From Shinella yambaruensis (GTDB lineage: Bacteria > Pseudomonadota > Alphaproteobacteria > Rhizobiales > Rhizobiaceae), in contig NZ_JALJCK010000016.1 of assembly GCF_022899355.1 (NCBI RefSeq), positions 62,001 to 126,000 on the forward strand: a stretch of DNA of 64,000 nt, read 5' to 3'. Under the pieces are notes generated by a model. That model was not told the origin of the DNA, searched no databases, and worked only from the letters and a program-made list of their open reading frames with translations. The translations under genes and the position numbers were made by a program. The number at the start of each line of letters is the position of its first letter. Position 1 is the first letter of the stretch. Positions 18,845 through 32,933 of the stretch are shown here, in pieces.

Positions 18845-19175
18845 TTCACTCCTCCCTAGCGGACGCCCGCTGGCGTCCCGTTGGCTTCCTGCCTCATTCA
18901 TTCCCCAAGGATCGAACCAGGGCCTCCTACCCGTTAGCTCAATTCTTGATCTCATAGTGTGATCACATATTGGGATTGTCAAGTAAAGAATCTGAGAGAG
19001 ATCACATGTTGTTGCCCATGACACACGCGCACGGCCGAAAGCCTCGCACATCATCCAATGTCCGGAAATCGCTTGTAAATTTTATTCGAACGACGCTGTC
19101 ACCACCCTCCGTTGCCGGGGCGTGGTGCATGGTGTCGGCGTCCATCGGCAGGCCCCGACGAGGCCGCTCGTCACG
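18845..19175. other. Intergenic region upstream of the importer operon
   Basis: About 330 bp between the binding-protein start and the CobW-gene stop. It holds the promoter/operator of the importer operon in its first 140 bp. I see no gene in the rest. Confidence 0.5.
18946..18982 (-). promoter_or_regulatory. TTGACA promoter with paired TGATCA operator (copy A)
   Basis: Read on the minus strand: TTGACA at 18982-18977, then, starting 10 nt later, TGTGATCA and a second, imperfect half GAGATCAA (18967-18946). The operator covers the expected -10 region, which suits repression. The same arrangement recurs at 21492, 28401 and 32933. It would control the importer operon. A further half site, AGATCACA, lies near 19000. 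Confidence 0.7.
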
Positions 19176-20174
19176 TTACGGTGTCGAGGCGAAAATGCTC
19201 GGCAACGAGTTTTCTATGGCCGAACGGCTGAGGTCCCTGGCGATGAACACCAGCCATCCGCCCGAGACACCATCCGGCCAGCGCGGCAGGTATTCGGGCG
19301 GGTAGACGACATGCTGAACCCCGTGAATGACCACGGGGCGGGAATCGCCCGCAACGGACAGCAGGCCCTTGACCCGCAGGATGGACTGGCCGCGGCTGGC
19401 GAGCAGCAATTCCAGCCAGTCGACAAAGGCCGGCCAATCCACGGCGGCGGCGACTTCGACGACGAAGGTCTCGACGCCGGCGCTGTGCCGGCCGTAAAGC
19501 GGCCCGTCGGAAGCATCGAGGTAGCGCGGGCGCCGGTCTCCGGTGCTCTCGAAAAGCGCGCCGGCGCCCGGCATCTTCGCCTTGCTGGAGACGAGCTGGC
19601 TGACCGTCGGGTTGATCGCGGCAATGTCATTGCGCAGCGCATCGAGCCGCCAGGGCTCGGCAAGATCGGACTTGGTCACCACCACGCGATCGGCCAGCGC
19701 CACCTGCTGGACGGCTTCGGCGAAGCGGGCGATCGTTCCCGCGCCCCCGACGCCATCGACCGTGGAGACGATCGTGCCGGCGCGGTAGCCGCGCCTCAAC
19801 CGCAGATCGCTCATCACCGCCTGCATGATCGGCGCGGGGTCGGCAAGTCCCGTCGTCTCGACGACGACGCGGCGAAAGGGCTCCACCTCCCCGCGGCGCA
19901 CCATCTCGAACATGTCGGCGAGCGTCGAGACCAGATCGTCCCGTACGGCACAGCACAGGCACCCCGAAGACAAGAGCACGGCGTCTTCGGACACTTCGCG
20001 CACCAGGAGATGATCAAGGCCGACCTCGCCGAACTCGTTGATGACCACAGCCGTGTCGGCGAAGTCCGGTTCGCCGAGCAGATGGCGGAGAAAGGTCGTC
20101 TTGCCGCTGCCGAGGAAGCCCGTCAGGACATGGACGGGAATACGATCATCCAGCGCGGGAGCGGCAGGCTGCAC
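19176..20174 (-). CDS. CobW-family GTP-binding metallochaperone-like protein
   Basis: A 332-residue COG0523/CobW-type G3E GTPase. Walker A is GFLGSGKTTFL, the metal-binding CxCC is in SSGCLCCAVRDDL and a TKSD nucleotide-specificity motif follows (VVTKSDLAEP). The C-terminal CobW domain occupies about residues 220-330. These proteins pass Zn, Co or Fe to target metalloenzymes using GTP. It is the last gene after gntR and ridA on the minus strand (2 bp from ridA). Because the island encodes three metal-dependent amidohydrolases, a role in loading them with metal is a reasonable guess. Confidence 0.88.
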   Translation of the reverse strand: MQPAAPALDDRIPVHVLTGFLGSGKTTFLRHLLGEPDFADTAVVINEFGEVGLDHLLVREVSEDAVLLSSGCLCCAVRDDLVSTLADMFEMVRRGEVEPFRRVVVETTGLADPAPIMQAVMSDLRLRRGYRAGTIVSTVDGVGGAGTIARFAEAVQQVALADRVVVTKSDLAEPWRLDALRNDIAAINPTVSQLVSSKAKMPGAGALFESTGDRRPRYLDASDGPLYGRHSAGVETFVVEVAAAVDWPAFVDWLELLLASRGQSILRVKGLLSVAGDSRPVVIHGVQHVVYPPEYLPRWPDGVSGGWLVFIARDLSRSAIENSLPSIFASTP

Positions 20175-20176
20175 GG

Positions 20177-20644
20177 TCAGGCCACCTCGAAGATCGCGTC
20201 GATCTCCACCGGCACGTTTCGCGGCAGCGAGTAGCAGCCGACCGCCGCGCGGGCATGGCGCCCCGCCTCACCAAAAACCTCGACCATCAGATCGGATGCG
20301 CCATTGATGACCTTCGGATGGTCCTTGAAATCCGGTTCGGCATTGACGAAGCCGCCCAGCCGGATCACGCCGACGACGCGGTCGAGATCACCGCCCAGCG
20401 CCTCCTTGAGCTGGGCGAGGATGTTGACGGCGCAAAGCCGCGCTGCCGCCTGGCCGTCCTCGACCGAAAAGTCGGAACCGAGCTTGCCGGTGAACTTGTC
20501 CCTGCCGCCCTCGGCCGGCACCTGTCCGGAAATATAGACCTGGCTGCCATGGCGGCGCGCCGGCACATAATTGGCCAGCGGCGCCGTCGTCGTCGGCAGC
20601 ACGATGCCCAGGCTCGCCAGTTTGTCGTCGATCTTCCCCACCAC
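20177..20644 (-). CDS. RidA family protein
   Basis: A RidA/YjgF-type protein of about 155 residues (VGKIDDKLASLGIVLP, VYISGQVPAEGG, NILAQLKEALG, VNGASDLMVEVFGEAGRHAR). The conserved arginine that binds the substrate carboxylate is in GRHARAAVGC. The family hydrolyses reactive enamines and imines to keto acids and ammonia in the cytosol, often next to amino-acid or amine-degrading enzymes. The GTG at 20644 was chosen because GGGGAGGAA lies just upstream. An ATG at 20665 immediately after the gntR stop would add seven residues but has no good ribosome site. Confidence 0.88.
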   Translation of the reverse strand: MVGKIDDKLASLGIVLPTTTAPLANYVPARRHGSQVYISGQVPAEGGRDKFTGKLGSDFSVEDGQAAARLCAVNILAQLKEALGGDLDRVVGVIRLGGFVNAEPDFKDHPKVINGASDLMVEVFGEAGRHARAAVGCYSLPRNVPVEIDAIFEVA

Positions 20645-20665: not shown

Positions 20666-21427
20666 CTAGTAGTCGAATTGCAGCTCCGGCCCGTGCGCGA
20701 AGGGCAGTTCCAGCCCCTGCGGGCCGGCGACGCTGAGCAGGGCCTTGCAGGTGGTGCGGATGTCGTGGACGATGCCCTTCTTGGCCGCCGTGGCGTTCTT
20801 GTCCTTGAGGGCTGCCAGGATGTTCTGGTGGTCCGACGCATTCCAAGGCATCGAGGGGATCAGCAGCGACATATACATGGTCGGGCCGAACTGCAGCCAA
20901 AGCGACTCGATCAGCGGCATCAGGACTTCGCTGTCCGCTGCCTGGTACAGCGTGAAATGGAATTTCTGGTTGGACGACAGGCAGTTCAGGATGTCGCGCT
21001 TTTCGATGGCCACCAGAAGCTGCTTGTTGATCGCCGACAACTCGTCCGCCAGCCCGGACGGATCCTTTTTCACGGCAAGCTCGGTCGCCATGCCCTCCAG
21101 CATCTCCCGGATCGTAAACAGCTCGGTCAGTTTTTCGGGCCGCAGCCTCGGCACGCGGACCGAACCGCCCTTGGTTTCCTCCAGCGCATTGGCAGCAACG
21201 AGGCGGCTGAGCACTTCGCGCACCGGCATCGGACTGGTGCCGAGCCCGACAGCCAGCTTGCGCAGGCTCATCACCTGTCCCGGCAGAAAGGCACCGACCA
21301 TGAGCCCACGGCGCATGTAACGAAGGACATGCTCATGGACATGGCCGCGTGCCGGCTTTTCGGCAGCGTCGCTGTTGACTTCGTTTTCCGGCTTCTTGAT
21401 CGGCATCTTGTCTTCAGACTCCGTCAT
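20666..21427 (-). CDS. GntR family (FCD) transcriptional regulator
   Basis: A 253-residue regulator with an N-terminal GntR winged helix-turn-helix (LRKLAVGLGTSPMPVREVLS, about residues 55-75) and an all-helical FCD effector domain (about 95-230) with the metal-site histidine in NQKFHFTLYQAA. FCD members usually release DNA on binding an organic-acid-like ligand. The gene lies in the middle of the catabolic island and is divergent from an amidohydrolase at 21631. The shared space holds one of four paired TGATCA operators. It is the obvious candidate regulator for all four. Confidence 0.9.
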   Translation of the reverse strand: MTESEDKMPIKKPENEVNSDAAEKPARGHVHEHVLRYMRRGLMVGAFLPGQVMSLRKLAVGLGTSPMPVREVLSRLVAANALEETKGGSVRVPRLRPEKLTELFTIREMLEGMATELAVKKDPSGLADELSAINKQLLVAIEKRDILNCLSSNQKFHFTLYQAADSEVLMPLIESLWLQFGPTMYMSLLIPSMPWNASDHQNILAALKDKNATAAKKGIVHDIRTTCKALLSVAGPQGLELPFAHGPELQFDY

Positions 21428-21491: not shown

Positions 21492-21528
21492 TTGACAGGT
21501 CAAAATTTGTGATCTCACATTGTGATCA
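21492..21528 (+). promoter_or_regulatory. TTGACA promoter with paired TGATCA operator (copy D)
   Basis: TTGACA at 21492-21497, then after 10 nt TGTGATCTCACATTGTGATC at 21508-21527, again over the -10 zone. It points toward the amidohydrolase at 21631 and lies about 65 bp from the gntR start on the other strand, so gntR itself may also be controlled. The spacing from TTGACA to the first half site is the same as in copies A, B and C within a base. Confidence 0.7.
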
Positions 21529-21630
21529 ATAAACGACTTTTCTCAAGACGGCAACCTTTAACTGTCCTGCCGCTCCGCAGACGCCAGCCAACGGAAAAGT
21601 CGCCCTGAGACTCCGATGGGAGAATGAGAC

Positions 21631-23004
21631 ATGACTGCGACCGTTTCCGACCAATCCGCCTTGCGTGCCCATATCGACCGCGCCGCCGGTCTCGGCCGCT
21701 ATGTGCTGCGCAACGTGCGCCTTCACACGGCGACCACACGGGCGGACGCTGCCGATGCCGCAGACAGCGCGTTCTTCCTGGCCGATATGAGTGTAGAGAA
21801 GGGCAGAATATTAGCAATAACGCCTGCACGTCCGCGCACCACCACGGCGGACGACCCGAACCTGCCGTTCATCGACGTCGGCGGGCGCGTCGCGCTGCCG
21901 CCCTTCGTCGATTGCCACACGCATCTCGACAAGGGCCACATCCTGCCGCGCACGCCCGCGGCGGACGGGACGTTCGACGGCGCGCTGGCGGCGACGCGCA
22001 GCGACCGCACGGCACGATGGTCAGCCGGCGACCTTGGCAGGCGCATCGATTTCGCCCTTCGCTCGGCCTTTCACTACGGCACATCCGCCATTCGCACGCA
22101 TCTCGATTCGCAGCCGCCGCAGGCCGAAATCTCCTGGCCCCTGTTCACGGAACTCCGCCAGCATTGGCGCGGGCGGATCGCGCTACAGGCTTCCTGCCTG
22201 TTCCCCATCGACATGGCACGGGACGATGCATTCCTGCGCGACATCGCAAAACGCGTCGCCGATGCCGGAGGGATCCTCGGCGCCGTCGCCTATCCGGTGC
22301 CCGATATCGATCATCTGCTCGACCGGATGTTCCGTGCCGCCTCGCATTACGGTCTCGATCTCGACTTTCATGCCGACGAGAGCGCCGACCCGGCCGCCGA
22401 TGTGCTGTGCCGCATCGCCGAAACGGCCTTGCGCTCCTCTTTCGCCGGCAGGATAGTGGTCGGGCACTGCTGCTCCCTGGCGATGCAGGAAACCGCGATT
22501 GTCGATGCGACGCTCGATAAGGTCGCGGCGGCCGGCATCACCGTCGTATCGCTGCCGACCTGCAACCTCTACCTCCAGGATCGCAGGAAGGACGGCACGT
22601 CGCCACGCTGGCGCGGCGTCACCCTGCTGCATGAAATGAAGCGACGCGGAATAGCTGTCGCGCTCGCCTCGGACAACACGCGCGACCCGTTCAATTCCTA
22701 CGGGGACCTGGACATGCTCGATACGTTCCGCCTCGGCACGCGTGCCCTTCATCTCGACCATCCCCACGGCGACTGGATCAAGGCGGTTTCTACGACGCCG
22801 GCCGAGATCATGCGCCTGAACGGCCACGGCGCCATCGCAGCAGGGCAACCGGCCGACCTGATCCTTTTCGAGGGACGCTCCTGGTCGGAGATCCTCTCCC
22901 GGGCGGAGAGCGACCGTATCGTCATCCGAAACGGTTCCCCGAGCTCGGCTCCCCTGCCCGCCTATGCGGAACTGGATTCGCTGGAGGGATTTGCGCTTAC
23001 CTGA
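21631..23004 (+). CDS. Amidohydrolase, cytosine-deaminase (CodA)-like
   Basis: A 457-residue amidohydrolase-superfamily TIM barrel. Metal and catalytic motifs are in order: DCHTHLDKGH (HxH), DFHADE (histidine and glutamate), VGHCCSL (histidine) and ASDNTRDPFN (aspartate). The DN-RDPF form is that of the cytosine/isoguanine/creatinine-deaminase group, which hydrolyses an exocyclic or ring C-N bond of a heterocycle using one metal ion. An N-terminal extension of about 35 residues is longer than in E. coli CodA. It is transcribed alone on the plus strand from operator copy D and converges on the isochorismatase-fusion gene across a terminator. The substrate is not known. Confidence 0.82.
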   Translation: MTATVSDQSALRAHIDRAAGLGRYVLRNVRLHTATTRADAADAADSAFFLADMSVEKGRILAITPARPRTTTADDPNLPFIDVGGRVALPPFVDCHTHLDKGHILPRTPAADGTFDGALAATRSDRTARWSAGDLGRRIDFALRSAFHYGTSAIRTHLDSQPPQAEISWPLFTELRQHWRGRIALQASCLFPIDMARDDAFLRDIAKRVADAGGILGAVAYPVPDIDHLLDRMFRAASHYGLDLDFHADESADPAADVLCRIAETALRSSFAGRIVVGHCCSLAMQETAIVDATLDKVAAAGITVVSLPTCNLYLQDRRKDGTSPRWRGVTLLHEMKRRGIAVALASDNTRDPFNSYGDLDMLDTFRLGTRALHLDHPHGDWIKAVSTTPAEIMRLNGHGAIAAGQPADLILFEGRSWSEILSRAESDRIVIRNGSPSSAPLPAYAELDSLEGFALT

Positions 23005-23026
23005 AGCACCGGCCCCCGCCAAGAAA

Positions 23027-23050
23027 AACCCCGCCTGGTCGGGCGGGGTT
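23027..23050 (-). terminator. Intrinsic terminator of the minus-strand catabolic operon
   Basis: A perfect 9-bp stem AACCCCGCC / GGCGGGGTT with a 6-nt loop. On the minus strand the stem is followed by TTTTTC, a good U tract. It ends the operon that runs from 28270 down to 23081; the opposite amidohydrolase gene also ends here, so it may act in both directions. Confidence 0.85.
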
Positions 23051-23080
23051 CCCCCAACGTTCGGATCAGCTCAAAGCAGA

Positions 23081-24070
23081 TCAGGCCGTCGCGCCGACCT
23101 GGTAGAGCTCGACCTTCGTACCATCCGGGTCGGCGATATAGATCGTCAGACCATAGGGACCGTCGTGAAGGTCGGTATAATAGCGGACGCCGGCTTTCTT
23201 CAGCTTCGCATCCATGGCGCGCACATCGTTGACTTCGAAAGCGATATGGTCGAGCTGACGGTGCTCGCGCGTCTTGCCGTGGATGAGGGCGATCCCCTGA
23301 TGGAAGGCGGTGAACGGACGGCCGTCGGCGAGCGGCTTGGCCGGGCGGATCGTGAAACCCAGCAGGTTGGTGTAGAAATCGACCGACGTGTCGATATCAT
23401 CGACCATGATCAGCTGGTGGCCATAGTTCGTCACGCGCGGCTTGACCTGTTCGCCGATCCAGTCGAGCACTTCGGAAGAGGGAGCGATCTCGCAGAAATA
23501 CTGCTTCCACACCTGCTTGGCCGTCGCCTCCCAATCCGCATTCACCCCCGAGATGCAGTCATCGACGGCAATGACGTCGAGGTCGCGCAGATAAGCTTCG
23601 CGAATGGAGGTCTCCACGCAGGCATTGGTGGTCGCCCCGGTAACGAAGAGATGCTGGGTGCCCAGCATCTTCAGCATCATCTCGAGACGCGTCTCGTAGA
23701 ACGCGCCGAAACGATGCTTGCGGATGACGAAGGCCGGATCGAAATCCGCAAGGTCCTTCAATTCGTCTATGATCTGCTCGTCCCAGGTTCCGGCAAGCGC
23801 GGAAACGCGCTTGCGGCGCGCGGTATGGCCGAGCAGCTTTTTCCTCGCACGGTTGTGGTCGATCGCAAAATGCTCCTGCATCGTCCAGATGACCGGGATG
23901 CCCGTGTCCTGGCAGCGCTCGATGAGCTTGGCCAGGGGCGGCACGATGGAGGAGAGCCGTTTGGTGTCGACGCCGGAAACACCCAGCGTTCCCTCCTCGT
24001 GAATGAACGCATTCTGCAGGTCGATGACCAGAAGCGCCGACTTGCGATAGTCGAGGGTTTCAAGGGCCAT
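23081..24070 (-). CDS. Isochorismatase-like hydrolase fused to a VOC (glyoxalase/extradiol) domain
   Basis: A 329-residue two-domain protein. Residues 1-205 are an isochorismatase-like cysteine hydrolase with the triad D17 (LLVIDLQNAF), K118 (VIRKHRFGAF) and C151 (TGATTNACVETS). Residues about 214-326 are a VOC domain with likely metal ligands H218, H275 (QLDHIAF) and E321 (GTKVELYQ). The first fold splits amides such as maleamate, N-carbamoylsarcosine or nicotinamide; the second includes extradiol dioxygenases and glyoxalases. ATG 24070 shares one base with the upstream TGA and has GGTGGAG 6 nt before it. It is the last gene of the operon before the terminator. The pairing is unusual and suggests consecutive steps. 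Confidence 0.85.
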   Translation of the reverse strand: MALETLDYRKSALLVIDLQNAFIHEEGTLGVSGVDTKRLSSIVPPLAKLIERCQDTGIPVIWTMQEHFAIDHNRARKKLLGHTARRKRVSALAGTWDEQIIDELKDLADFDPAFVIRKHRFGAFYETRLEMMLKMLGTQHLFVTGATTNACVETSIREAYLRDLDVIAVDDCISGVNADWEATAKQVWKQYFCEIAPSSEVLDWIGEQVKPRVTNYGHQLIMVDDIDTSVDFYTNLLGFTIRPAKPLADGRPFTAFHQGIALIHGKTREHRQLDHIAFEVNDVRAMDAKLKKAGVRYYTDLHDGPYGLTIYIADPDGTKVELYQVGATA

Positions 24071-24267
24071 CACTTGTGCTCCACCATGTCGATGCCGAGC
24101 ACGCCGCCGCGACCCCAGCTATCCTTGGGCGTCTCATGGATCACCACGTGCAGGTGATCCGGCTTGCAGGCGGCCTCTTCGACCATGGCCTTGGTGATGG
24201 CTTTCACGAGGTTGCGCTTCTGCTCGACGGTGCGCCCCTCCCACATTTCGACGACGACGAATGGCAT
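24070..24267 (-). CDS. 4-oxalocrotonate tautomerase family enzyme
   Basis: A 65-residue tautomerase. The start at 24267 (AGGAG 7 nt upstream) gives MPFVVVEMWEGRTVEQKR, so that removal of Met exposes the catalytic Pro-1, the hallmark of the family. Arg in GRTVEQKR and the later HVVIHETPKDSWG also fit. The enzymes move double bonds in unsaturated keto acids during ring-cleavage pathways and assemble as hexamers. It lies between the phytanoyl-CoA-dioxygenase-like gene (1 bp away) and the isochorismatase fusion, with which it overlaps by one base. Confidence 0.88.
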   Translation of the reverse strand: MPFVVVEMWEGRTVEQKRNLVKAITKAMVEEAACKPDHLHVVIHETPKDSWGRGGVLGIDMVEHK

Positions 24268-24268
24268 T

Positions 24269-24952
24269 CTATGTCTCCTCTCTTTCAGCGGGCGTGGCGC
24301 CGGAGGCCCAGACGGGCACGGCGGACGCAAAGCCCGAAACCAGGTCATTGTCGGCCCGGTCGGCGCCGGAGAGCAGCCAGAGCGGGCGGTTCGAATAGTT
24401 CACCAGGACCTGCTCTTCCATGCAGGCCCGGTTGGCCGGATGCGCGGGATCGCGCACGAAGCGGCTCGTCGCCGGCATCAGCCGGATCACGTAAAGCGGC
24501 TCCGCATCCTCAAGGCCGCAAAGCGCCTCGGAACCCATCGCCGCCAGCGGGACGGCCCGCGGAACAGGATCTTCTCCGGCGACAGGCACGAGCAAAACGG
24601 CGCCGGCGAGCGGCGCCACCGGCCAGTACCGGCCTTCCCGGCGCGCATCCAGAAACGCGCGGTATCGACCGGCCTCTGTGAACAGTTCACTGTCCCAGAG
24701 GATGATATCGGCCCCGAGCACGTTCCTCGCCGCCTCGACGACGAGGTCGCTCTCGCACAGTTCGAGGAAGGCCCAGGGGTCGGTCAAGGCGATGCCGTGG
24801 CCCCAGGGATTGTGGATCCCCGACAGTCTCTCCTGGCGGATCGCCGCCTTGCGGCCGACGATCCTGGCGACGGCCTCGCGCACCGGCAGTCGCGCCGGTG
24901 TCAGCGGGACCCGGCCGGCCAGATCGAGATGGTCGGGGATCGCCACGGTCAT
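24269..24952 (-). CDS. Uncharacterised protein, possibly a degenerate phytanoyl-CoA-dioxygenase-like fold
   Basis: A 227-residue protein from ATG 24952, which overlaps the upstream stop as ATGA. I do not recognise it firmly. The part ELCESDLVVEAARNVLGADI followed by ILWDSELF resembles the segment before the active site of PhyH-type Fe(II)/2-oxoglutarate dioxygenases, and RYWPVAPLAGAVLLVPV resembles the strand after it. However, the HxD iron motif expected between them is replaced by an Arg-rich stretch, and no distal histidine is clear. If the relation is right it has lost its iron. It has no signal or membrane segment. Its place in the middle of a tightly overlapped operon means it is a real part of the pathway. 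Confidence 0.6.
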   Translation of the reverse strand: MTVAIPDHLDLAGRVPLTPARLPVREAVARIVGRKAAIRQERLSGIHNPWGHGIALTDPWAFLELCESDLVVEAARNVLGADIILWDSELFTEAGRYRAFLDARREGRYWPVAPLAGAVLLVPVAGEDPVPRAVPLAAMGSEALCGLEDAEPLYVIRLMPATSRFVRDPAHPANRACMEEQVLVNYSNRPLWLLSGADRADNDLVSGFASAVPVWASGATPAEREET

Positions 24953-26298
24953 GCCGCCGGCACGGTCACGCAACGGCCGCGGCCGTAATGCCGCTCGTCG
25001 ACCGCGCCGTTTTCATAGACGACCTCGCCGCGTGCGACCGTCATCACCGGCCAGCCCTTCAGGGTCCAGCCCTCGTAGATGCAGGTGCCCTTGCCGGTGT
25101 GCTCGACCGTGCGCTCCTCATCAAGATCGACCAGAACGAGGTCCGCATCGAAGCCGACATCGATATGGCCCTTGCGCGGCCAGAGGCCGAAGCGACGGGC
25201 CGGATTGAACGAGTTGAGCTCGACCAGGCGGCTGAGCGGCAGCCCGCGCTGGTGCACGCCGAAGTGCAGCATCAGCGACAGTTCCCAGGGGAAGCTGACG
25301 ACACCGGGGAACTCCGTCCAGAGATCCTCGAGCTTCTTGGGCAGGAACGGCACATGGTCGGTGCCCAGGCTGTAGACCGAGCCGTTGAGCATGCCGGCCC
25401 ACAGGCCCTCGAGTTCGTTGCGGTCGCGCAGCGGCGGCGAGATCTTGGCGCGCATGTCGAGATCGTCGTCGTAGCAGGTGCGCGTCAGGTAATGCGGGCA
25501 GGTTTCCACCGTGACATGAATGCCGCGGGCCTGCGCTTCGGCAGCGAGGACCGGCCCCATGCCGACCGATGTGTGCACGAGATGCAGGGAGCAACCGGTC
25601 TTCTCGGCCAGGAAGATCATGCGCCGGATCGTTTCGACCTCGCAGAAGGCCGGGCGCGATTCCGTGTAGGCGCCGAGGTCCTGGCGGCCGGTCGCGGCGA
25701 TCTCCTTCTTGATCCACGAGGCGATCTGGGTGTTCTCGCAATGGACGTTGATCACCGCGCCGGGGATCTTCGACAGGATGCGCATGGCGGCGTAGACCCA
25801 GCCATCGGTCGCCGGGACGATGCCGATCGGATTGTCGGGCTCATAACCGAAATAGCATTTGAAGGACTTCACGCCGGTCTTGGCGATGATTTCAGGGATT
25901 TCGGCGATGTGCTCCTCGCGCTGGATGCCGAAGTGGAAGCCGAAATCGATAACCGCATTCTCCTCCCCCAGCGCCTTGCGCTCCTCGTAGAAGGGCAGGT
26001 AGGATTCCTTCAGATTGCGGATGTAGAGCAGCGCCGTCGTTACGCCACCGGAGGCGGCGGCGGCCGTCTCGGTCCGCATGTCCTCCGGGAACGGGAACTT
26101 CACACCGAGATGGCAATGCGGGTCGATCAGGCCCGGCATCAGGACCCGGCCCCCGGCATCGATGGTGCGGGTGGCGTCCGGCAGGACCTCGTCCGCCCCG
26201 GTCAGCACGATCTTGCCGTCCTTGACGGCGACCCCGCCGAAATATTCGCCGTCGTGGCGAACCACGCGGGCGTTCTTGATGACGAGATCCGCCTTCAT
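24949..26298 (-). CDS. Cyclic amidohydrolase, dihydroorotase/hydantoinase-like
   Basis: A 449-residue amidohydrolase-superfamily enzyme. DPHCHLGVKFP carries HxH, SFKCYFGYE contains a lysine in the position that is carbamylated in hydantoinases, NVHCEN and LVHTSVG give the next metal histidines and GTDHVPF the catalytic aspartate. All residues of a two-metal dihydroorotase/dihydropyrimidinase site appear present. Such enzymes open or close cyclic amides and imides. ATG 26298 overlaps the upstream stop (ATGA), and its own stop overlaps the next start the same way. Substrate unknown; it is not the housekeeping pyrC, judging by context. Confidence 0.85.
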   Translation of the reverse strand: MKADLVIKNARVVRHDGEYFGGVAVKDGKIVLTGADEVLPDATRTIDAGGRVLMPGLIDPHCHLGVKFPFPEDMRTETAAAASGGVTTALLYIRNLKESYLPFYEERKALGEENAVIDFGFHFGIQREEHIAEIPEIIAKTGVKSFKCYFGYEPDNPIGIVPATDGWVYAAMRILSKIPGAVINVHCENTQIASWIKKEIAATGRQDLGAYTESRPAFCEVETIRRMIFLAEKTGCSLHLVHTSVGMGPVLAAEAQARGIHVTVETCPHYLTRTCYDDDLDMRAKISPPLRDRNELEGLWAGMLNGSVYSLGTDHVPFLPKKLEDLWTEFPGVVSFPWELSLMLHFGVHQRGLPLSRLVELNSFNPARRFGLWPRKGHIDVGFDADLVLVDLDEERTVEHTGKGTCIYEGWTLKGWPVMTVARGEVVYENGAVDERHYGRGRCVTVPAA

Positions 26299-27185
26299 TG
26301 CTTTTGCTCCAATATGCCTTCGATACGCCGGCTGATGCCGGCCCACTGGCTGCGCCCGACGGTGATCGGCGCGCGCGCGCCCATGCCCCGGGCCCAGACC
26401 GCCTTCAGCCCGAGTTCACCGGCCGCCTCGCGGTCGATCGTGCCGGGCGGGGCCGCCACATCCACCAGAAGCGCGTGCTTGGACAGCAGTTCGAGCTGCG
26501 CACGCTCCATCAGGCGCTTCGGAACGCTGCCGATGACGACATCCATCCGGGGCAGGTAGTCAGGCAGCTCCTCCAATGTCAGCGACTGCGCGCCGGCGGC
26601 ATAGGCCGCGGCCCGCTGCACCGGGTTTCGCGCCGCGACATGGACATGGGCACCGAGCGCCACCAGCGTGTTGGTCAGCAACGAGCCGATGGTGCCCTGC
26701 CCGACGAGCATGACGTTCGACTTGTGGATGGTGATCTGCGTGTTCTCGATGATCACCTTGAGCACGCCCTCGACGATGGCGGGGCCGCGCAGCAGCATCA
26801 GATCGACATCCCACTCATATTCGTGCAGCGTGATGCCGAGCACCTCGCAATGGCCCTTCAGATTGGCGTCGGCCCAGCCGAGGATGATGTGGCCCGGCTT
26901 GTTCATGCCCGCGAGCATGTCGCGCGTCGGGATGATCTTCTCGGGGCACTTCGGCGCGAACAGCGCGCCCTCCGCCGTGATGCCGGGGATCGGGAAGAGG
27001 GCGATGTCGGCCCCCTTCAGCGCGTCGGCCGCATCCCTCGCGTGGTAGACGCCCTCGATGCCCTCGTCCGGCCAGGGGAAACCATAGGCACGAACGGTCG
27101 CGCCGGCCCGCAGGGCACAGCGGGCGATCTCCTGCTCGCGGGCATCCCCGGCGACGACCGCGATGACGGTGTTCTTCCAGCTCAT
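26295..27185 (-). CDS. Dipicolinate synthase subunit A-like NAD(P)-binding protein
   Basis: A 296-residue protein with the two-part structure of DpaA (SpoVFA): an N-terminal domain beginning KNTVIAVVAGDAREQEIARC and a central Rossmann fold, VMLVGQGTIGSLLTNTLVAL (about residues 158-177), then VVIGSVPKRLMERAQLELL. Length equals Bacillus DpaA (about 297). In sporeformers DpaA with the flavoprotein DpaB oxidises dihydrodipicolinate. No DpaB partner is encoded here and the host does not sporulate, so another dehydrogenation of a cyclic imine or related acid is more likely. It overlaps both neighbours by 4 bp. Confidence 0.75.
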   Translation of the reverse strand: MSWKNTVIAVVAGDAREQEIARCALRAGATVRAYGFPWPDEGIEGVYHARDAADALKGADIALFPIPGITAEGALFAPKCPEKIIPTRDMLAGMNKPGHIILGWADANLKGHCEVLGITLHEYEWDVDLMLLRGPAIVEGVLKVIIENTQITIHKSNVMLVGQGTIGSLLTNTLVALGAHVHVAARNPVQRAAAYAAGAQSLTLEELPDYLPRMDVVIGSVPKRLMERAQLELLSKHALLVDVAAPPGTIDREAAGELGLKAVWARGMGARAPITVGRSQWAGISRRIEGILEQKQ

Positions 27186-28270
27186 TTCGCCCTCACCTTC
27201 TCGATCACCTGCTCCTTGCTCATCCCTGCTATGCCCATCGCCTCGGCGGTACGGCCGCCCTCGCGATAGTTGGCGCCGACCGCGATCTGCGCCAGGCTGT
27301 AGAGGGAATGGGCCACCGGCGTCTCGACGCCGGCGATCCGCGCAAATTCAAGGAACGGCAGCAGGCCGTGACCGAAATCCTCCTTGTAGTAGCGGTATTC
27401 CAGGGAGTCGGGTCCCTTGATGCGCTTGTTGGCTTCGCCGCCGGCAATTGCCGCCCGGTAGTCGCCGGTGTCGACCACATCCGCCTCCACCGTGCCGAGA
27501 AGCTTCATCTCCTCGATCAGGTTCGGCAGGTCGTGCCCGAAAGCCCTGGCGACCGCCAGCCGTTCCTCGTCGAGCTGCTTCATGACGCGGGCAACGCCGG
27601 GGGTCATGGCATCGACATAGAAGGTGAAGTTGCCACTCGTCGCCTCCACCCATGCGGCCGCCAGCACCGCGCCCGGCGGATGCAGGACCATGTTAACGTT
27701 GGAAAGGTCCGAGGCGATGACATCGGCAACGGGATCAAGGCCCGGAAAGAGCTTGCCGGCGATCTCCAGAACCTCCGCCCCACCCTTCAGGGCGGCCGCC
27801 TTGAGCCGCTTCGCCCGGCCGGAAACCGTCACGCCGTCCGGGCGATACTTGCGCGCCACATAGGTCAGCGTCGAGAACTCGACCACGGCCGGCGCCGCAC
27901 GCCCGCTGCGCGCGAAGGTTTGCGCAAACTCCAGGGCGCCACCGGTATGGCCCGGATTGAGGATGACGGGGCTGGACGAGGGCCAGCCTGCGGCCGCGAG
28001 CGCCGCGGCAATCGGCGAATGCGAAAAGGTCGGCAGTGCCACCACCGCGACATCGACCCCCGCGATCGCCGCCTTGAGGTCGGTGGTGATCAGCGCCGGC
28101 CTGGCGACACCCTCGCCGAGCTTGCCTTCATGGGCAACCCCGCCGAGTTTGATATGCGGCTCCAGCGTTTCGGCCGATCTCGCCCAGAAATGCACGTCGT
28201 GCCCGGCCTGGACCAGCTCCGCAACCGAAGCCGCCCCACCGGCGCCTGCACCTAGTACTGCTACCTTCAT
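27182..28270 (-). CDS. Octopine/nopaline dehydrogenase family protein
   Basis: A 362-residue Rossmann-fold dehydrogenase starting MKVAVLGAGAGGAASVAELV, with the C-terminal helical domain seen in IASDLSNVNMVLHPPGAVL and YYKEDFGHGLLPFLEFAR. The asparagine/histidine pair in NVNMVLHPPG is the conserved substrate region of opine dehydrogenases. The ATG at 28270 follows GGAGGAGAG. It is the first gene of a six-gene operon under operator copy B and overlaps the DpaA-like gene by 4 bp. It could oxidise an opine-like N-carboxyalkyl amino acid or reduce an imine. It is only distantly similar to the family member at 1965-3047. Confidence 0.85.
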   Translation of the reverse strand: MKVAVLGAGAGGAASVAELVQAGHDVHFWARSAETLEPHIKLGGVAHEGKLGEGVARPALITTDLKAAIAGVDVAVVALPTFSHSPIAAALAAAGWPSSSPVILNPGHTGGALEFAQTFARSGRAAPAVVEFSTLTYVARKYRPDGVTVSGRAKRLKAAALKGGAEVLEIAGKLFPGLDPVADVIASDLSNVNMVLHPPGAVLAAAWVEATSGNFTFYVDAMTPGVARVMKQLDEERLAVARAFGHDLPNLIEEMKLLGTVEADVVDTGDYRAAIAGGEANKRIKGPDSLEYRYYKEDFGHGLLPFLEFARIAGVETPVAHSLYSLAQIAVGANYREGGRTAEAMGIAGMSKEQVIEKVRAK

Positions 28271-28365
28271 TCTCTCCTCCCGGGGGAAAGCGTGGGCAAG
28301 ACCACCTGTCCCCATTCCCGGAGCGGGCTTAAGGTCCCGGCTCCACTGGTTGCTCCTCAACAACT

Positions 28366-28401
28366 TTGATCACACTTTATGATCACAGATAGAATTGTCA
28401 A
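28366..28401 (-). promoter_or_regulatory. TTGACA promoter with paired TGATCA operator (copy B)
   Basis: On the minus strand: TTGACA at 28401-28396, 8 nt, then TGTGATCA-TAAAG-TGTGATCAA at 28387-28366. Two identical TGTGATCA halves stand 13 bp apart over the -10 region; TAAAGT is a possible -10 at 16 nt spacing. It leads the six-gene operon that starts at 28270. This is the cleanest copy of the four. Confidence 0.75.
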
Positions 28402-28917
28402 GCAGAAGAATATGCTTTCGCATGCTCAATTCGCCCGATCGGTGAAGGCTGCTTGCCGCGACGGGCGAGAACCATGCGCCGGTCAAATCCGGACGGATGC
28501 TCGCCGGCGCCCACACCGGGATTCGCACTGAATCCATCGCGGATGAACAGATTTCCCGACCCCCGCACACGGAGTGATCCGCTTCACCGACTTTCTTCCG
28601 GAATATTGTTTCTACCGTATCATCCAGCGGCACGCCCTTTCGGCGCGATCCGCGATGCAGGGGGCCGAGAGGTCCAACACCACCATCATGAACGGCAGCT
28701 TTATGGTATCCTCCTGCAGCACACGGTGCCCGGAACGAGAAGCACCCGTCGGACAGCAGCGCACCATTGCTGCGCGGCCACCCTTCAGCCAGGCCGATAG
28801 GCCGAGCTTCGACATGCCGCCCCAAAGCGCCCGCTTCCGACAAGGCAGACTTCAGGGCAGCCTCTCGGCCGCAGCTTGCCCCGGCCGGCGCCGAACGCCG
28901 GCCAGACAGGCCTCAGC
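28402..28917. other. Gap without a clear gene
   Basis: About 515 bp between operator copy B and the stop of the minus-strand amidohydrolase. Several short frames exist but none shows a family motif or a good ribosome site, and codon usage looks unlike the flanking genes. A perfect GGCCGGCG / CGCCGGCC hairpin (28883-28903) lies just after the amidohydrolase stop but has no T tract; it may stabilise or end that message. The rest may be decayed coding sequence. Confidence 0.35.
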
Positions 28918-30357
28918 TCAGTTTCCTTCGTCGTAGAGCGTCGTGGTCGTCTCGACATTCCCGTGGTGGAGACCGGCCCGCACCACCGCGGCGGCGGCCA
29001 GTTCGCGGGCCTTGGCGCGGATCGCCGCCTCGTCGACGCCCTGCACCTTGCCGTCGGCATAAAGTGCCTTGCCGTCCACCCAGGTCTGCGTGATCGACGC
29101 GGTGGATGCGGAGAAGACCAGCGCTTGCAACGGATCGTAGAACGGCGTCCACTCGATATGGTCGAGGTCGAAGAGAATGAAATCCGCCTTCTTGCCCACT
29201 TCGAGCGAGCCGATTTCATCGTCCCACATCAGGGCCCGCGCCCCTTCGATGGTGGCGGCGCGCAGCGCCTCGCGCGCGGTGAAGACGTCGGGCTTCAACC
29301 GCGCATCCTTGAACATCCCGGCCACGACCAGCATCTGCCGCATGAGGTTCATGTTGCCCGCCGCCGACACGCCATCGGTCCCGAGCCCGACCTTGACGCC
29401 GGCCTTGACCATTTCGGGATATTTGCCGATGGACGTCGCGCCCTTGCCGAGCTTGAAGGACGAGCACGGGCAGAAGGCGACGCTCGCGCCCCGCTCCGCC
29501 AGCAGCCTGACCTCCTCGTCCGATACCGCCGCACCATGGGCGATGACGAGATTCTTGCGGATGCCGCCGGCCTGGTCGACCCGGGTGATCGGCCAGCAGC
29601 CATATTTGCTCTCGCAGACCTTGGCCTCCTCGATCGAGGTCGCCAGATGGTAGGTCGTGCCGACACCCAGCTTCTCGGCCAGCGCGACGGCGCCGACATG
29701 CAGTTCGAGGCTGCACGGCTCCTTGCCCTCGATGTTCACCCAGCAGCGGGCGCGGCCCTCGAGCGTATTGTTATAGCGTGTAACGCATTCCTCCAGCACT
29801 TTCAGCGCCGTCTGCGCGTCCGGGAAGAAATGATGCTCGGCCATTTCCTCGGTCCAGCCACGCGGCAGCTCGGCCGGCCGGTTGTCCGCGGCATGGCGGC
29901 CGGTGATGCCGCGCATGCCGGTCTTTTCCATCGCCCGGATGACGATCCCGGGATCGTATTGCGAGCCCATGTCGAGGAAGCAGGTCGTGCCGCATCGGAG
30001 CATCTCCGTGATGCCGAGCAGTGCGCCCCAATATTCGTCCTCTTCCGTGATGAAGGCGTAGAAGGGCTTGGCCCAGTGGAAGACCCAGGCCCGCGTGTTG
30101 AGATTGTCGGGGAAGACCGCGCGCGAAAGCGTTTCCGACAGATGGACGTGGCTGTCGACGAAGCCCGGGCACATGCCCAGCATCCTGCCGTCGATCACCT
30201 TGTCGAAAACCCCGCCCTGGTGGCGCGTCTTGATCTCATCCGCCGCTCCGATGTCTGCGATGCGGTCGTTCTCGATCACCACGCTGGCATTGCGCAGCAC
30301 CGTGTCGTCCTTGTCGACCGTGAAAGCGAAGTTCAGATTTTCAATCAGCGTACGCAT
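28918..30357 (-). CDS. Amidohydrolase, AtzB/TrzA/guanine-deaminase-like
   Basis: A 479-residue amidohydrolase-superfamily enzyme of the TrzA/AtzB/MtaD branch. DSHVHLSE gives the HxH, TYHLATS the third metal histidine, IAHGAAVS the catalytic histidine and GLGTDGVSAAGN the aspartate. In the deaminases and chlorohydrolases of this branch the third histidine is normally followed three residues later by a catalytic glutamate (HxxE); here it is threonine (H-L-A-T). Either another residue does the job or the reaction differs. It is the last gene after the M24 and enolase genes, 112 bp from the M24 gene. Confidence 0.85.
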   Translation of the reverse strand: MRTLIENLNFAFTVDKDDTVLRNASVVIENDRIADIGAADEIKTRHQGGVFDKVIDGRMLGMCPGFVDSHVHLSETLSRAVFPDNLNTRAWVFHWAKPFYAFITEEDEYWGALLGITEMLRCGTTCFLDMGSQYDPGIVIRAMEKTGMRGITGRHAADNRPAELPRGWTEEMAEHHFFPDAQTALKVLEECVTRYNNTLEGRARCWVNIEGKEPCSLELHVGAVALAEKLGVGTTYHLATSIEEAKVCESKYGCWPITRVDQAGGIRKNLVIAHGAAVSDEEVRLLAERGASVAFCPCSSFKLGKGATSIGKYPEMVKAGVKVGLGTDGVSAAGNMNLMRQMLVVAGMFKDARLKPDVFTAREALRAATIEGARALMWDDEIGSLEVGKKADFILFDLDHIEWTPFYDPLQALVFSASTASITQTWVDGKALYADGKVQGVDEAAIRAKARELAAAAVVRAGLHHGNVETTTTLYDEGN

Positions 30358-30469
30358 GCGGCTCCACCCAATGCTTCAACACGTTTCCCTCCCGATCGCC
30401 CGCCGCGCGAGATGGCGGGCGACATTCATGGCGGCCGGGCAGGACACCGGCCCGGCCGCCGTAGCGCCC

Positions 30470-31642
30470 TCAGGCGACGGCCTGTGCCTTCACGCCCTGC
30501 CTGGCGGTGCCGCAGACGATAAGCTTGTCCGTGTTCGTGTAGTCGGACAGGAGTTCCGATCCGTTCGACGTCACAAGCAGCATGTCCTTGTTCTGCATGC
30601 CAAAGCCATAGCCGGTGTTGTAGCAGAGCGGTTCGAAACCGAGGACCATGTTTTCCTCCAGCGGCGCGTCGCTGCCCGGCTTGCCGAGCACCGGCGTGAG
30701 GCCGAGATAGGGATCCTCATGGAGATGAAGGCCGATGCCGTGGCCGACGAAGGAGATCGGCGGCAGGTCGAGCTTGGCGAGCTTGGCGATGAACGCGTCG
30801 TAGATCGCGCGGCAGCTGGCGCCCGGCTTCACCTTCTCCATGATCTCGTACTTGCATTCCACCAGATGGGCCCAGATCTTGTCGGCCATGGGCGGCGCTT
30901 CGCCGACGATGGCCGTCCGGCAGACACCGGCCTGGTAGCCGTCGATGACGGAGAAGATTTCCACGCGGCAGACATCCCCGCGCTTGAGGATGCGGTCGGA
31001 CGGGCCGACATTCGGCAGCACGCTGCGCTCGCCGGTGGCGACGATGAGGAGCTTGAAATGCTCCGCGCCAAGCGAATAGACGTTGCGCGTCAGGTGCCCG
31101 GCAATATCCATTTCACTGTTGCCCGCATCCACCTCCGCCAGTGCGTCGGCAATGGCTTGGTCGGCGATGCGCGACAGTCTGCTGAGCAGCGCGATCTCTT
31201 CTGCCGTCTTGATCTGGCGCAGCCGCGCGAGGATCGGCTCGGCGTGCTCGAACCGCGCGCCGGGCATCGCCGCGATCAGGCGGGCGAAATCGCCGGCAGG
31301 CAGATAGTCCATCTCGAGGCCGATGCGCGCCTTCGCAAGGCCAAGACCGGAGAGCTGGTCGGCAAGGACCAGCATCGGGTCATCGGAAAACTCCGCCCAG
31401 ATGCGTGACGGTACGTCGGGCAGGCGCCGCTTGATCGTCGACGCTTCCATATCGACACCGAAAATGGCGCTGCGCCCGTCGGCGGTGACGATCGTCATCG
31501 CGTGGCGATGGCGGATCAGCGGTTGCGACGGAACGACGAAGCCTGCCGTATAGGCAAAGTTCTCAGGCGAGGAGCAAATGATGGCATCGAGCCCATGCTC
31601 CGCCATAGCCCTGACCTGTTTTGCAACGATTTCTGCCCGCAT
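30470..31642 (-). CDS. M24 family protein, creatinase/aminopeptidase-P-like
   Basis: A 390-residue protein with an N-terminal creatinase-like domain (about 1-140) and a pita-bread M24 domain (about 150-390). VGHGIGLHLHEDP carries the conserved histidine and NMVLGFEPL a glutamate. The dinuclear-metal aspartates are not kept: the usual D...D pair is VEIFSVIDGYQAGVC, with Glu and Gly at those places, and the last Glu is Asp (MQNKDMLLV). This pattern is that of non-metal creatinase-like hydrolases rather than peptidases. Such proteins hydrolyse C-N bonds of creatine or ectoine. GAGAGAGGAAAG precedes the ATG at 31642. It is the middle gene of the enolase-M24-amidohydrolase operon. Confidence 0.83.
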   Translation of the reverse strand: MRAEIVAKQVRAMAEHGLDAIICSSPENFAYTAGFVVPSQPLIRHRHAMTIVTADGRSAIFGVDMEASTIKRRLPDVPSRIWAEFSDDPMLVLADQLSGLGLAKARIGLEMDYLPAGDFARLIAAMPGARFEHAEPILARLRQIKTAEEIALLSRLSRIADQAIADALAEVDAGNSEMDIAGHLTRNVYSLGAEHFKLLIVATGERSVLPNVGPSDRILKRGDVCRVEIFSVIDGYQAGVCRTAIVGEAPPMADKIWAHLVECKYEIMEKVKPGASCRAIYDAFIAKLAKLDLPPISFVGHGIGLHLHEDPYLGLTPVLGKPGSDAPLEENMVLGFEPLCYNTGYGFGMQNKDMLLVTSNGSELLSDYTNTDKLIVCGTARQGVKAQAVA

Positions 31643-31678
31643 ATTCTTTCCTCTCTCCTTGCGTTTGCTGGCGGACGC

Positions 31679-32839
31679 TCAGTCGCGAACGCGATATTTC
31701 TCGACCTTGGCAAGATCGACATCGATGCCCATGCCAGGCCCCGTCGGCACGACGATTGCGCCGTCGACGAACTGCATCGGCTCGACCAGAAGGTCGTCCT
31801 TGTAGTAGATGCCGCCGACCTGGCCATGCTGCGCCTCGGCCGGCGTCGATACGGGAATGACGCAGGACAAGGTCACCGCCGGTGACGCGGCGGCGAGCTG
31901 GACATTGGCGAGGTTGCCGATGCCGGTCTCGATCGATCCGTTAACGTTGCAGAGGATGCCGGCGGCGCGGCAGACCGCGCCCACCTCCATCGCCTTGTAG
32001 AGGCCGCCCGCCTTTGTCGTGTAGATCGAGACGATCTGGATACCGCCATTCTGGACGATCTGGATGGAATCATGGGCATTCCAGGCCGATTCGTCGGCCA
32101 TGACGGGCGCATCGATCCGGCGGCCGACCTCGGCGATCCGCTCGATGCCCATCACCGGCTGCTCGACATATTTGAGCCCGTTCTTCTCCATCTTGCGCAC
32201 GGTCTGCACGGCCTCGCCCGGCGTCTTGTAGCCCTCGTTGGCATCGACGCAGATCTCGACCGCATCGCCGGCGACCTCCCGCACGGCATCGACCATGGCA
32301 ACGTCCCGCGCCGGATCGACGCCGATCTTCACCTTGATCGTCCTGACGCCTTCCGCGACCAGCTTGGCGACCTCGGACCGCGCCTCTTCGATGGAGATCA
32401 GGCCGATGGAATGGGTGACCGGCACCCGTTCGCGCGCCTTGCCGCCGAGCAGGGTGTGCACGGGAACGTTCAGCCAGCGGCCGGCAAGATCATAGGCCGC
32501 AAACTCGACCGCAGCCTTCGAATAGGGATAACCACGGATGATCGCATCCATCCGGGCATGCAGTTCCGCGAAATTGCCGAGTTCCAGCCCGATGACCGCG
32601 GGCGCGAGATAGGTGTCGATGACCGCGCGGGTGATCATGGCGGATTCGCCGAAATAGCGGCCGAATTCCCCACCCCAGTCCTTGAGCGCCGGCGCCTCGC
32701 CCCATCCGACCCGGCCGTCGCTATCGGTCATCCTGACCATGACGTAGCGGCCAATGACCTCGGTGAGGCCCGCCCACTTGTGCTCGCGCCGCGTGGGCAA
32801 TTGGACAATCAATGTTTCGATGGACTTGATCGTTGGCAC
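31679..32839 (-). CDS. Enolase superfamily enzyme, muconate cycloisomerase (MLE) subgroup
   Basis: A protein of about 386 residues with an N-terminal capping domain and a TIM barrel. TIKVKIG is the KxK acid/base motif, ICVDANEGY, KYVEQPV and VMADES give the Asp-Glu-Asp magnesium ligands and YTTKAGG the opposite lysine, so the active site is complete. MLE-group enzymes abstract a proton next to a carboxylate, giving lactonisation, epimerisation or racemisation. The start is uncertain: GTG at 32839 or GTG at 32848 both lie near AAGGAGAAGGTGGAG, while an upstream GTG falls inside the operator. It is the first gene under operator copy C. Confidence 0.85.
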   Translation of the reverse strand: MPTIKSIETLIVQLPTRREHKWAGLTEVIGRYVMVRMTDSDGRVGWGEAPALKDWGGEFGRYFGESAMITRAVIDTYLAPAVIGLELGNFAELHARMDAIIRGYPYSKAAVEFAAYDLAGRWLNVPVHTLLGGKARERVPVTHSIGLISIEEARSEVAKLVAEGVRTIKVKIGVDPARDVAMVDAVREVAGDAVEICVDANEGYKTPGEAVQTVRKMEKNGLKYVEQPVMGIERIAEVGRRIDAPVMADESAWNAHDSIQIVQNGGIQIVSIYTTKAGGLYKAMEVGAVCRAAGILCNVNGSIETGIGNLANVQLAAASPAVTLSCVIPVSTPAEAQHGQVGGIYYKDDLLVEPMQFVDGAIVVPTGPGMGIDVDLAKVEKYRVRD

Positions 32840-32896
32840 TGGCTCCACCTTCTCCTTGTCGTCGCAGACATCTCGTTGTAGAATGCGATCATCTAT

Positions 32897-32933
32897 TGTG
32901 ATCACACTTTATGATCATGATTTGGAATGTCAA
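32897..32933 (-). promoter_or_regulatory. TTGACA promoter with paired TGATCA operator (copy C)
   Basis: On the minus strand: TTGACA at 32933-32928, 9 nt, then ATGATCA-TAAAG-TGTGATCACA at 32918-32897. The 16-nt spacing to TAAAGT repeats that of copy B, and the central TAAAG is identical. It serves the enolase-M24-amidohydrolase operon and, being between divergent genes, perhaps also the small gene at 32979. A further GATCAT half site lies at about 32887-32892. Confidence 0.75.

Follow-up and report, generated by a model that had tools for sequence, protein, structure and literature searches.

The window considered here, a 64,000-nucleotide stretch of Shinella yambaruensis DNA (contig NZ_JALJCK010000016.1, positions 62,001 to 126,000), carries a cluster of genes for amidohydrolases, dehydrogenases, an importer and a GntR-type regulator that appears to form a single catabolic regulon. 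A preliminary description made from the sequence had drawn attention to positions 21631 to 32839, and all of the enzyme families it named were recovered there, far above chance, by profile searches. The unit extends beyond this stretch, from 16163 to 32839, and thus includes an ABC importer and a GntR-RidA-CobW group, and probably also the adjoining NAD(P) transhydrogenase; positions 16163 to 21406 are assigned to it because operator sites are present there. Pfam models and curated NCBIfam cut-offs were used, and comparisons with NCBIfam refer to the models listed. The genes, with the short names used below, are as follows.

16163..16963, minus strand: ATP-binding protein of the ABC importer (PF00005), at the same position in relatives
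17014..17784, minus strand: permease of the ABC importer (PF00528); importer genes stand next to ODH in loci L022 and L034
17849..18844, minus strand: substrate-binding protein (SBP) of the ABC importer, NMT1/THI5-type (PF09084, 2.1e-31)
19176..20174, minus strand: CobW/COG0523 GTPase (PF02492)
20177..20644, minus strand: RidA-family protein (annotation of relatives; alignment of 8 rows)
20666..21406, minus strand: GntR/FCD regulator, the presumed operator binder (PF00392 and PF07729)
21631..23004, plus strand: CodA, a cytosine-deaminase-like amidohydrolase and optional member (PRK07583, 580 bits)
23081..24070, minus strand: ISO_VOC, an isochorismatase-VOC fusion (PF00857, 3e-36; PF00903, 1.7e-15)
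24070..24267, minus strand: TAUT, 4-oxalocrotonate tautomerase family (PF01361, 1.3e-17)
24269..24952, minus strand: ORPH, probably of PhyH fold, without the HxD motif (Foldseek; no Pfam or NCBIfam match)
24949..26298, minus strand: HYD, a hydantoinase/dihydropyrimidinase-like amidohydrolase (PF01979, 1.8e-19)
26295..27185, minus strand: DpaA-like NAD(P) dehydrogenase (PF16924, 5.4e-20, 72 bits; PDB 2rir)
27182..28270, minus strand: ODH, opine-dehydrogenase (octopine-dehydrogenase) family (PF02317, 4.5e-36; PDB 1bg6, 175.6 bits)
28918..30357, minus strand: AtzB-like amidohydrolase, Thr240 in place of the deaminase Glu (PF01979, 6.8e-55)
30470..31642, minus strand: M24, a creatinase/prolidase fold without the metal site (PF00557, 2.3e-35)
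31679..32839, minus strand: MLE, an MLE-subgroup enolase (PF13378, 1e-47)
14398..15981, minus strand: NAD(P) transhydrogenase alpha, a probable member that adjoins the ATP-binding protein gene in Shinella and Phyllobacterium and has no operator of its own
12948..14381, minus strand: NAD(P) transhydrogenase beta, a probable member on the same basis

ORPH and four of the genes scanned against Pfam were scanned as slightly longer frames (ends 24073, 24348, 26346, 28363 and 24973). In the direction of transcription, the minus strand carries MLE, M24, AtzB and, after a gap of 650 bp, ODH, DpaA, HYD, ORPH, TAUT and ISO_VOC; beyond the plus-strand codA gene it continues with GntR, RidA, CobW, the NMT1-type importer and the transhydrogenase. 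The tight packing reported earlier for the six-gene operon is real, with 4-bp overlaps at ODH/DpaA, DpaA/HYD and HYD/ORPH, a gap of 1 nucleotide between ORPH and TAUT, and an overlap of 1 nucleotide between TAUT and ISO_VOC.

A 19-bp palindrome, TGATCnnAnnnTnTGATCA, is found at all four promoter regions of the cluster. This candidate operator came to light when the gap in front of ODH was compared with DNA of an Aminobacter plasmid, and its sites in the window, none of which is assigned a strand, are these.

18947..18965: upstream of SBP; 19 of 23 loci have a site before an SBP gene
21510..21528: between gntR and codA; 24 of 25 loci have a site before gntR
28367..28385: upstream of ODH; in 22 of 27 rows
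32899..32917: site 1 upstream of MLE; a site precedes MLE in 12 of 14 rows
32886..32904: site 2 upstream of MLE, a CGATC variant

The pattern YGATCN8TGATCA has seven strand matches in the window, corresponding to five sites, where 0.17 are expected, and none of 100 shuffled sequences reached seven. With the strict pattern, only four sites are found in the 6.87-Mb genome, all inside the cluster, and the reversed control gives none. Among relatives we counted 93 sites in 27 loci (28 rows, one locus being split in two), and 88 of these lie upstream, meaning within 300 bp, of MLE, ODH, GntR, SBP or the permease, the last in 2 of 24. Two of the five remaining sites precede the other member of a pair of SBP genes (L002 and L009), one is where an SBP is expected but absent (L004), and two lie farther upstream of the permease gene (L016 and L021). 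The full operator also occurs in a Betaproteobacterial metagenome-assembled genome (MAG), at locus L022.

Given that the same operator is present at all transcription units and is rare elsewhere in the window's genome, we judge the cluster to be one regulon, presumably that of the GntR protein, in several Hyphomicrobiales and in the Betaproteobacterial MAG. Earlier, gene overlaps had been cited as grounds for treating the six-gene operon as one functional unit; the shared operator bears this out on separate evidence and for a larger set of genes. Chance clustering of unrelated genes was considered as well, and is ruled out by the operator together with the conserved gene set. At L083 (9506-11230, genome G1013), a gene for a thiamine-diphosphate enzyme (PRK08327) diverges from an SBP-like gene across an operator and may be an extra regulon member. 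In L002 (15040-17323) and L009 (6378-8660), an amidase and a second substrate-binding protein are inserted beside the fusion gene with an operator copy of their own.

The same gene set recurs, as judged by the DpaA marker, in 14 Hyphomicrobiales plasmid records, and also in 19 genome loci. A search with the DpaA-like protein finds 18 plasmid records, 14 of them at 90% identity or more (Aminobacter 10, Shinella 3, Phyllobacterium 1); the remaining four, from Bacillus, Cytobacillus, Monoglobus and Pusillibacter, have genes annotated as DpaA/DpsA at 27-31%. The fusion protein retrieved the 19 genome loci, which include Shinella, Aminobacter, Mesorhizobium, Bradyrhizobium, Nitratireductor and the Betaproteobacterial MAG. 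Four of the 14 plasmid records (as gene tables) and these 19 loci make up L002-L024, and in all 23 the order ODH-DpaA-HYD-ORPH-TAUT-ISO_VOC is kept, while CodA is present in 15. In Aminobacter and some other loci, DadA, malate synthase G (GlcB) and GlcG are located between AtzB and ODH; DadA was matched in 13 of the 23 and GlcB in 12, several loci ending inside that region. Neither DadA nor GlcB belongs to the cluster of the window or to those of the Shinella loci L005, L006 and L023. Relics of DadA, GlcB or GlcG in the gap at 28271-28917 were considered and set aside, since among the matches listed there was GlcG only, with E of at least 0.22. In Phyllobacterium zundukense (L003, 20576-23829), the genes for GlcG, malate synthase G and DadA are fragmented.

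The DpaA marker was detected in 1 of 289 genomes of the class and 1 of 398 of the phylum, each time the window's own. In the order sample it occurs in 9 of 397 genomes, five of which (the window's own included) match at 48% identity or more. One of these five, G854, very probably represents the L010 contig, and its locus (L042) does not figure in the operator count. At the most distant locus, that of G835, HYD is not followed by an ORPH gene; the CobW/COG0523 GTPase there is fused to a domain with about 30% identity to ORPH (L037:2365-4032). The distant DpaA-like genes of G680, G717, G777 and G822 (31-33%; L038-L041) were set aside as belonging to a different conserved locus type; in L038, the locus that was scanned, the neighbouring genes encode a TP_methylase, a B12-binding radical SAM protein, a Ro60/TROVE-vWA protein and an FecCD-type ABC importer.

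The window itself is part of a repABC plasmid, as judged from the 97.5% identity of positions 14000-33500 to the Shinella plasmids NZ_OZ000532 and NZ_OZ012598 and from the repC and repB genes nearby, which profile searches place, together with a tyrosine recombinase, on the opposite flank of the cluster. Past repABC on the same plasmid, at about 39800-44600 of the window, are rhizopine-catabolism-like (moc) genes, as judged by synteny with L005. On the Aminobacter plasmid pAA03 (L004), the cluster is flanked by two 100% identical cassettes of 3356 bp (6247-9602 and 24554-27909) with a Mu-type transposase, TniB and TniQ; AtzB is truncated there, and the cluster looks as if it had moved as a composite element. 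The cluster is also carried by plasmid pUSP1 of Aminobacter sp. MSH1. In the available main text of the MSH1 genome paper (PMC8460812), the cluster is not described and the words hydantoin, amidohydrolase, malate synthase and allantoin do not occur; the homogentisate pathway is among the RAST assignments given for pUSP1, and one pUSP1-free colony is reported. The NAD(P) transhydrogenase beside the importer differs clearly between genera: one type has a PntA of 527 amino acids (window, 12948-15981), the other is split (L002, 4721-7843); the latter type, found at this place in Aminobacter and Mesorhizobium, is 37-55% identical in pieces. In a Beijerinckiaceae MAG (L085, 3412-5439), a Rieske VanA-type oxygenase and its reductase are encoded beside the importer.

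A partly different arrangement is seen in the order to which L022 belongs, where 8 of 250 sampled genomes have a DpaA orthologue and the surroundings were read for six of these. Three genomes (G1119, G1027 and G1257), which are closely related and do not count as independent cases, keep DpaA, TAUT, a stand-alone VOC, MLE, M24 and GntR. Beside MLE are genes for TctC-type binding proteins, for the alpha and beta subunits of a ring-hydroxylating dioxygenase of benzoate/anthranilate type and for a CMD protein; two of the genomes also have a molybdenum-hydroxylase large subunit. All three have half of the operator, TGTGATCA, at two places, upstream of MLE and in the interval from the dioxygenase to the TctC gene; two of them have it between GntR and DpaA as well. 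Only DpaA, TAUT and VOC were seen in G1195, G1227 and G1159, whose surroundings are shorter or different; G1195 has five half-sites, four of them within genes, and the short stretches of G1227 and G1159 have none.

On this comparison of gene content, we distinguish a core of DpaA, TAUT, VOC, MLE and M24, common to Hyphomicrobiales and Burkholderiales, from an apparent nitrogen module of ODH, HYD, ORPH, ISO (the isochorismatase part of the fusion) and AtzB, usually with RidA and CobW. The C-N hydrolases, in other words, look like an addition, and CodA, DadA, GlcB, GlcG and the amidase are classed as optional members. In the genome of L022 the genes are divided between two contigs: one has the operon of the nitrogen module and, divergent from it across the operator, a molybdenum hydroxylase with 62% identity to the one in G1257, and the other (L086) has MLE-M24-AtzB with a half-site before MLE. 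Because the same half-operator is found beside a ring-hydroxylating dioxygenase in three Burkholderiales genomes, ring catabolism is plausible for the core. The cyclic nitrogen compound proposed in the preliminary description as the substrate is therefore plausible as regards its ring, whereas we only infer that the ring is a nitrogen heterocycle.

Retention of the core without C-N hydrolases, next to a benzoate/anthranilate-dioxygenase-like enzyme, would also suit a carbocyclic aromatic acid with a nitrogen substituent (ureido, amide or guanidine), the core treating the aromatic part and the extra module the side chain. We hold this to be very improbable, given that HYD is of the cyclic-amidase type and that no side-chain-cleaving oxygenase was recognised in the window's cluster.

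The active sites of the encoded enzymes give a mixed picture of the chemistry to be expected. Among the models listed, the minus-strand enzymes score under the curated NCBIfam cut-offs, with the exception of the tautomerase (PRK02220, 2-hydroxymuconate tautomerase, 60.7 versus 55); the plus-strand CodA exceeds the cut-off of PRK07583 (cytosine deaminase) with 580 versus 403 bits. The metal site of HYD (HxH, a carboxylatable Lys, two further His and an Asp) is complete in 27 of 27 rows, and none of its best 25 of 64 models passed (D-hydantoinase 267.8 versus 393, allantoinase PRK06189 288 versus 631). MLE keeps K-x-K, D, E, D and K in 14 of 14 rows, which we take to be the conserved K-x-K, three acidic metal ligands and second Lys of its family, and it is under the cut-off for muconate cycloisomerase TIGR02534 (245 versus 335). 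The Arg and Glu presumably typical of active RidA members are present in 8 of 8 rows, the N-terminal Pro of TAUT in 11 of 11, and both the D-K-C triad of ISO and the H-H-E triad of VOC in 28 of 28. The DpaA-like protein matches PDB entries 2rir and 3d4o and falls under the cut-off of TIGR02853 (dipicolinate synthase subunit A; 173 versus 320 bits); general profile scans recognised no DpaB-like partner among the cluster proteins scanned. For the SBP, the PDB offers weak sequence matches to 3qsl (E 6.5e-5, a putative exported protein) and 3ix1 (E 4.5e-4, a pyrimidine-binding protein).

Two of the hydrolases have lost residues expected of their families. In the AtzB-like protein, Thr240 replaces, in 18 of 18 rows, a Glu that is present in 4f0r and 3hpa and that we take to be the catalytic residue of AtzB/SAH-deaminase type aminohydrolases. 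M24 has E, G, H, E and K where prolidase has D, D, H, E and E, presumably its metal ligands, so that three positions are lost; this holds in 16 of 17 rows, the seventeenth being a separate paralogue in L036. M24 matches creatinase 1chm with E 3e-16 and the ectoine hydrolase model with 82.8 versus 613 bits, and its residues were aligned to those of prolidase.

For the ISO domain, the best NCBIfam models are RutB and biuret hydrolase, both under the cut-off (78 versus 378 and 73 versus 370), and 3eef, an N-carbamoylsarcosine-amidase-related protein, is among its PDB matches. These matches, the hydrolase folds in general and the DadA-GlcB-GlcG genes of the Aminobacter cluster would all be in keeping with a creatinine- or hydantoin-like cyclic ureide route. 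By this route CodA or AtzB would deaminate a cyclic guanidine, HYD would open a hydantoin, ISO would act as N-carbamoylsarcosine hydrolase and M24 as creatinase, DadA would convert sarcosine or glycine to glyoxylate, and GlcB would carry this on to malate. We nevertheless regard the route as unlikely. CodA is missing from 8 of the 23 loci, M24 and AtzB lack their family residues, and the core is joined with a ring-hydroxylating dioxygenase in three related Burkholderiales genomes. Moreover, ODH, DpaA, TAUT, MLE and VOC have no place in it, in agreement with the preliminary remark that the gene set holds more than the creatinine enzymes.

The VOC domain was earlier suggested, tentatively, to cut the ring, and a broader version of this idea has DpaA making a dihydroxylated (hetero)aromatic ring, VOC opening it as a small extradiol dioxygenase, and TAUT and ISO processing the product. 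The H-H-E triad, kept in all 12 VOC sequences aligned (six of them stand-alone), would permit such a role, and the ring-hydroxylating dioxygenase and molybdenum hydroxylase nearby in Burkholderiales, as well as the FAA-hydrolase gene that adjoins VOC in G1195, would be natural companions of it. No ring hydroxylase, by contrast, was recognised in the window's cluster, and the structural model of VOC (predicted local distance difference test score, pLDDT, 80.5) finds its best matches in FosA-type, glyoxalase-I and antibiotic-binding VOC proteins, with no extradiol dioxygenase among the best 50 of 979. NCBIfam likewise gives glyoxalase I (42 bits), and catechol 2,3-dioxygenase reaches 24.6 against a cut-off of 320. 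By fold and profile the domain is closest to FosA and glyoxalase I, so a ring-cleaving role for it is not supported, and we consider an oxygen-cut ring distinctly unlikely.

ORPH has no Pfam or NCBIfam match and no PDB sequence match. Its model (pLDDT 71.7) has CytC3, human PhyH and ThoJ as best Foldseek matches, all weak (best E 0.022, E about 0.02-0.04 and none below 0.001; probability about 0.9, at best 0.93; template-modelling score 0.3-0.4). A conserved HxD iron motif, part of the HxD...H that we take to be the iron triad of Fe/2-oxoglutarate PhyH oxygenases, is absent from an alignment of 19 sequences. ORPH is thus probably a PhyH-fold protein without the iron motif, as far as its model allows this to be judged. 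The annotation 'Resolvase', given to this gene in relatives, is not supported, in view of the lack of matches in Pfam, NCBIfam and PDB sequences and of the probable PhyH-like fold.

With these characteristics in mind, we find it somewhat probable that the cluster is a horizontally mobile catabolic regulon that imports a ring compound by the NMT1-type ABC transporter and feeds it into central metabolism. The substrate would be a cyclic nitrogen-containing acid, either an N-heteroaromatic carboxylate or a cyclic ureide. A ring substituent may be hydrolysed by AtzB and, in loci that have it, by CodA. The DpaA and ODH families both act on nitrogen flanked by carboxylated carbons, and the two proteins may oxidise the substrate with NAD(P)+, which would account for the transhydrogenase nearby. 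HYD would then open the ring hydrolytically, a step that fits the window's version better than ring cleavage by VOC. ISO, in view of its best NCBIfam models, would remove a carbamoyl or amide nitrogen, RidA would hydrolyse the resulting imine or enamine, TAUT, VOC and MLE would isomerise the open acid, and M24 would make a metal-free hydrolytic cut. Where DadA, GlcB and GlcG are present, a glycine-like fragment could pass through glyoxylate to malate, a glyoxylate end suggested by the gene content of relatives. Both the order of the steps and each reaction are offered as a proposal. A bolder idea, to which we attach little confidence, is that the genes encode a complete pathway, not described before, by which a common N-heteroaromatic acid of natural origin is degraded. 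Its core would be found in both Hyphomicrobiales and Burkholderiales, a relative of dipicolinate synthase would act in catabolism, for example on a pyridine-dicarboxylate-like ring, and the metal-free M24 and the Glu-less AtzB would catalyse reactions new to their families.

Several observations weigh against our proposal of a mobile regulon for a nitrogen-containing ring. The pairwise identities of DpaA, AtzB and M24 correlate with r of 0.92-0.99 (55 pairs from 11 chosen loci), but with no housekeeping control. As to the regulon, the link between GntR and the operator is one of position, and GntR is presumably the binder on that ground. The full operator is absent from L034, from the region upstream of ODH in L015, L022, L033, L034 and L036, and from that upstream of MLE in L033 and L036; half-sites are nevertheless present in L022, L033, L034 and L036. 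With a looser pattern, 13 of 14 further genomes match in the cluster, and several match elsewhere too. As to the chemistry, the window's cluster is without an obvious oxygenase, ORPH being without the iron motif, and the hydrolyses proposed for M24 and AtzB are guesses because the residues for their families' usual reactions are lost. The hydrolases alone are not distinctive, since the window's genome has three further HYD-like genes (29-44%) and three further AtzB-like genes (27-33%) elsewhere. Finally, the stretches read of G1119, G1027 and G1257 contain no HYD, ODH, ORPH, ISO, AtzB or CodA, and because these three Burkholderiales clusters are without the module, the removal of nitrogen is not common to all versions and the core may act on a carbocyclic ring.

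With its recognisable operator, its single dedicated transporter and some ten conserved enzymes, the regulon lends itself well to the search for a degradation pathway not yet described. That two of its enzymes and one probable pseudo-oxygenase are maintained although textbook catalytic residues are gone from them points to unrecognised reactions. Plasmids of Shinella and Aminobacter carry the cluster, and one of their hosts, Aminobacter sp. MSH1, degrades pollutants, so that a nitrogen heterocycle of environmental relevance may be the substrate. The preliminary description could match the enzyme set to no described pathway, and we likewise found no description of this gene set in open-access full text, which was searched mostly with narrow word combinations.

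Among known systems, the reductive pyrimidine/hydantoin (hyu) clusters of Aminobacter strains DSM24754 and DSM24755 have ordinary dihydropyrimidinases with D-carbamoylase or ABC genes; they share with the present cluster a hydantoinase-type amidohydrolase, which in one strain adjoins ABC transporter genes, but in the available portion of that report DpaA, ODH and ISO_VOC are not mentioned (PMC3546935). DpaA of spore formers has the same DpaA_N and NAD-binding domains and is 27-31% identical to the protein described here, whose gene, by contrast, is part of a Proteobacterial catabolic regulon and scores under the TIGR02853 cut-off. The benzoate/anthranilate-type dioxygenase pathways are approached in the three related Burkholderiales genomes, where core genes are found beside such a dioxygenase and a CMD protein. 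The window's version lacks this dioxygenase, and the core includes DpaA and M24, which to our knowledge are not part of the usual pathways of this type.

Creatinine and creatine degradation employs creatinine deaminase, N-methylhydantoinase, N-carbamoylsarcosine hydrolase and creatinase, and thus has four folds in common with the cluster. It differs in that ODH, DpaA, MLE, TAUT and VOC have no place there, no creatininase was recognised among the cluster proteins scanned, and the M24 site departs from that of prolidase, against which its residues were compared. The Rut uracil pathway, which includes RutB and RutC, shares with the cluster the combination of a RutB-like isochorismatase fold and a RidA-family protein, here brought together in one regulon. 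The resemblance is partial, given that TIGR03614 scores 78 bits against a cut-off of 378 and that no RutA-type monooxygenase was recognised among the cluster proteins scanned, and to this shared pair the present cluster adds dehydrogenases, an enolase, a tautomerase and an M24 protein.

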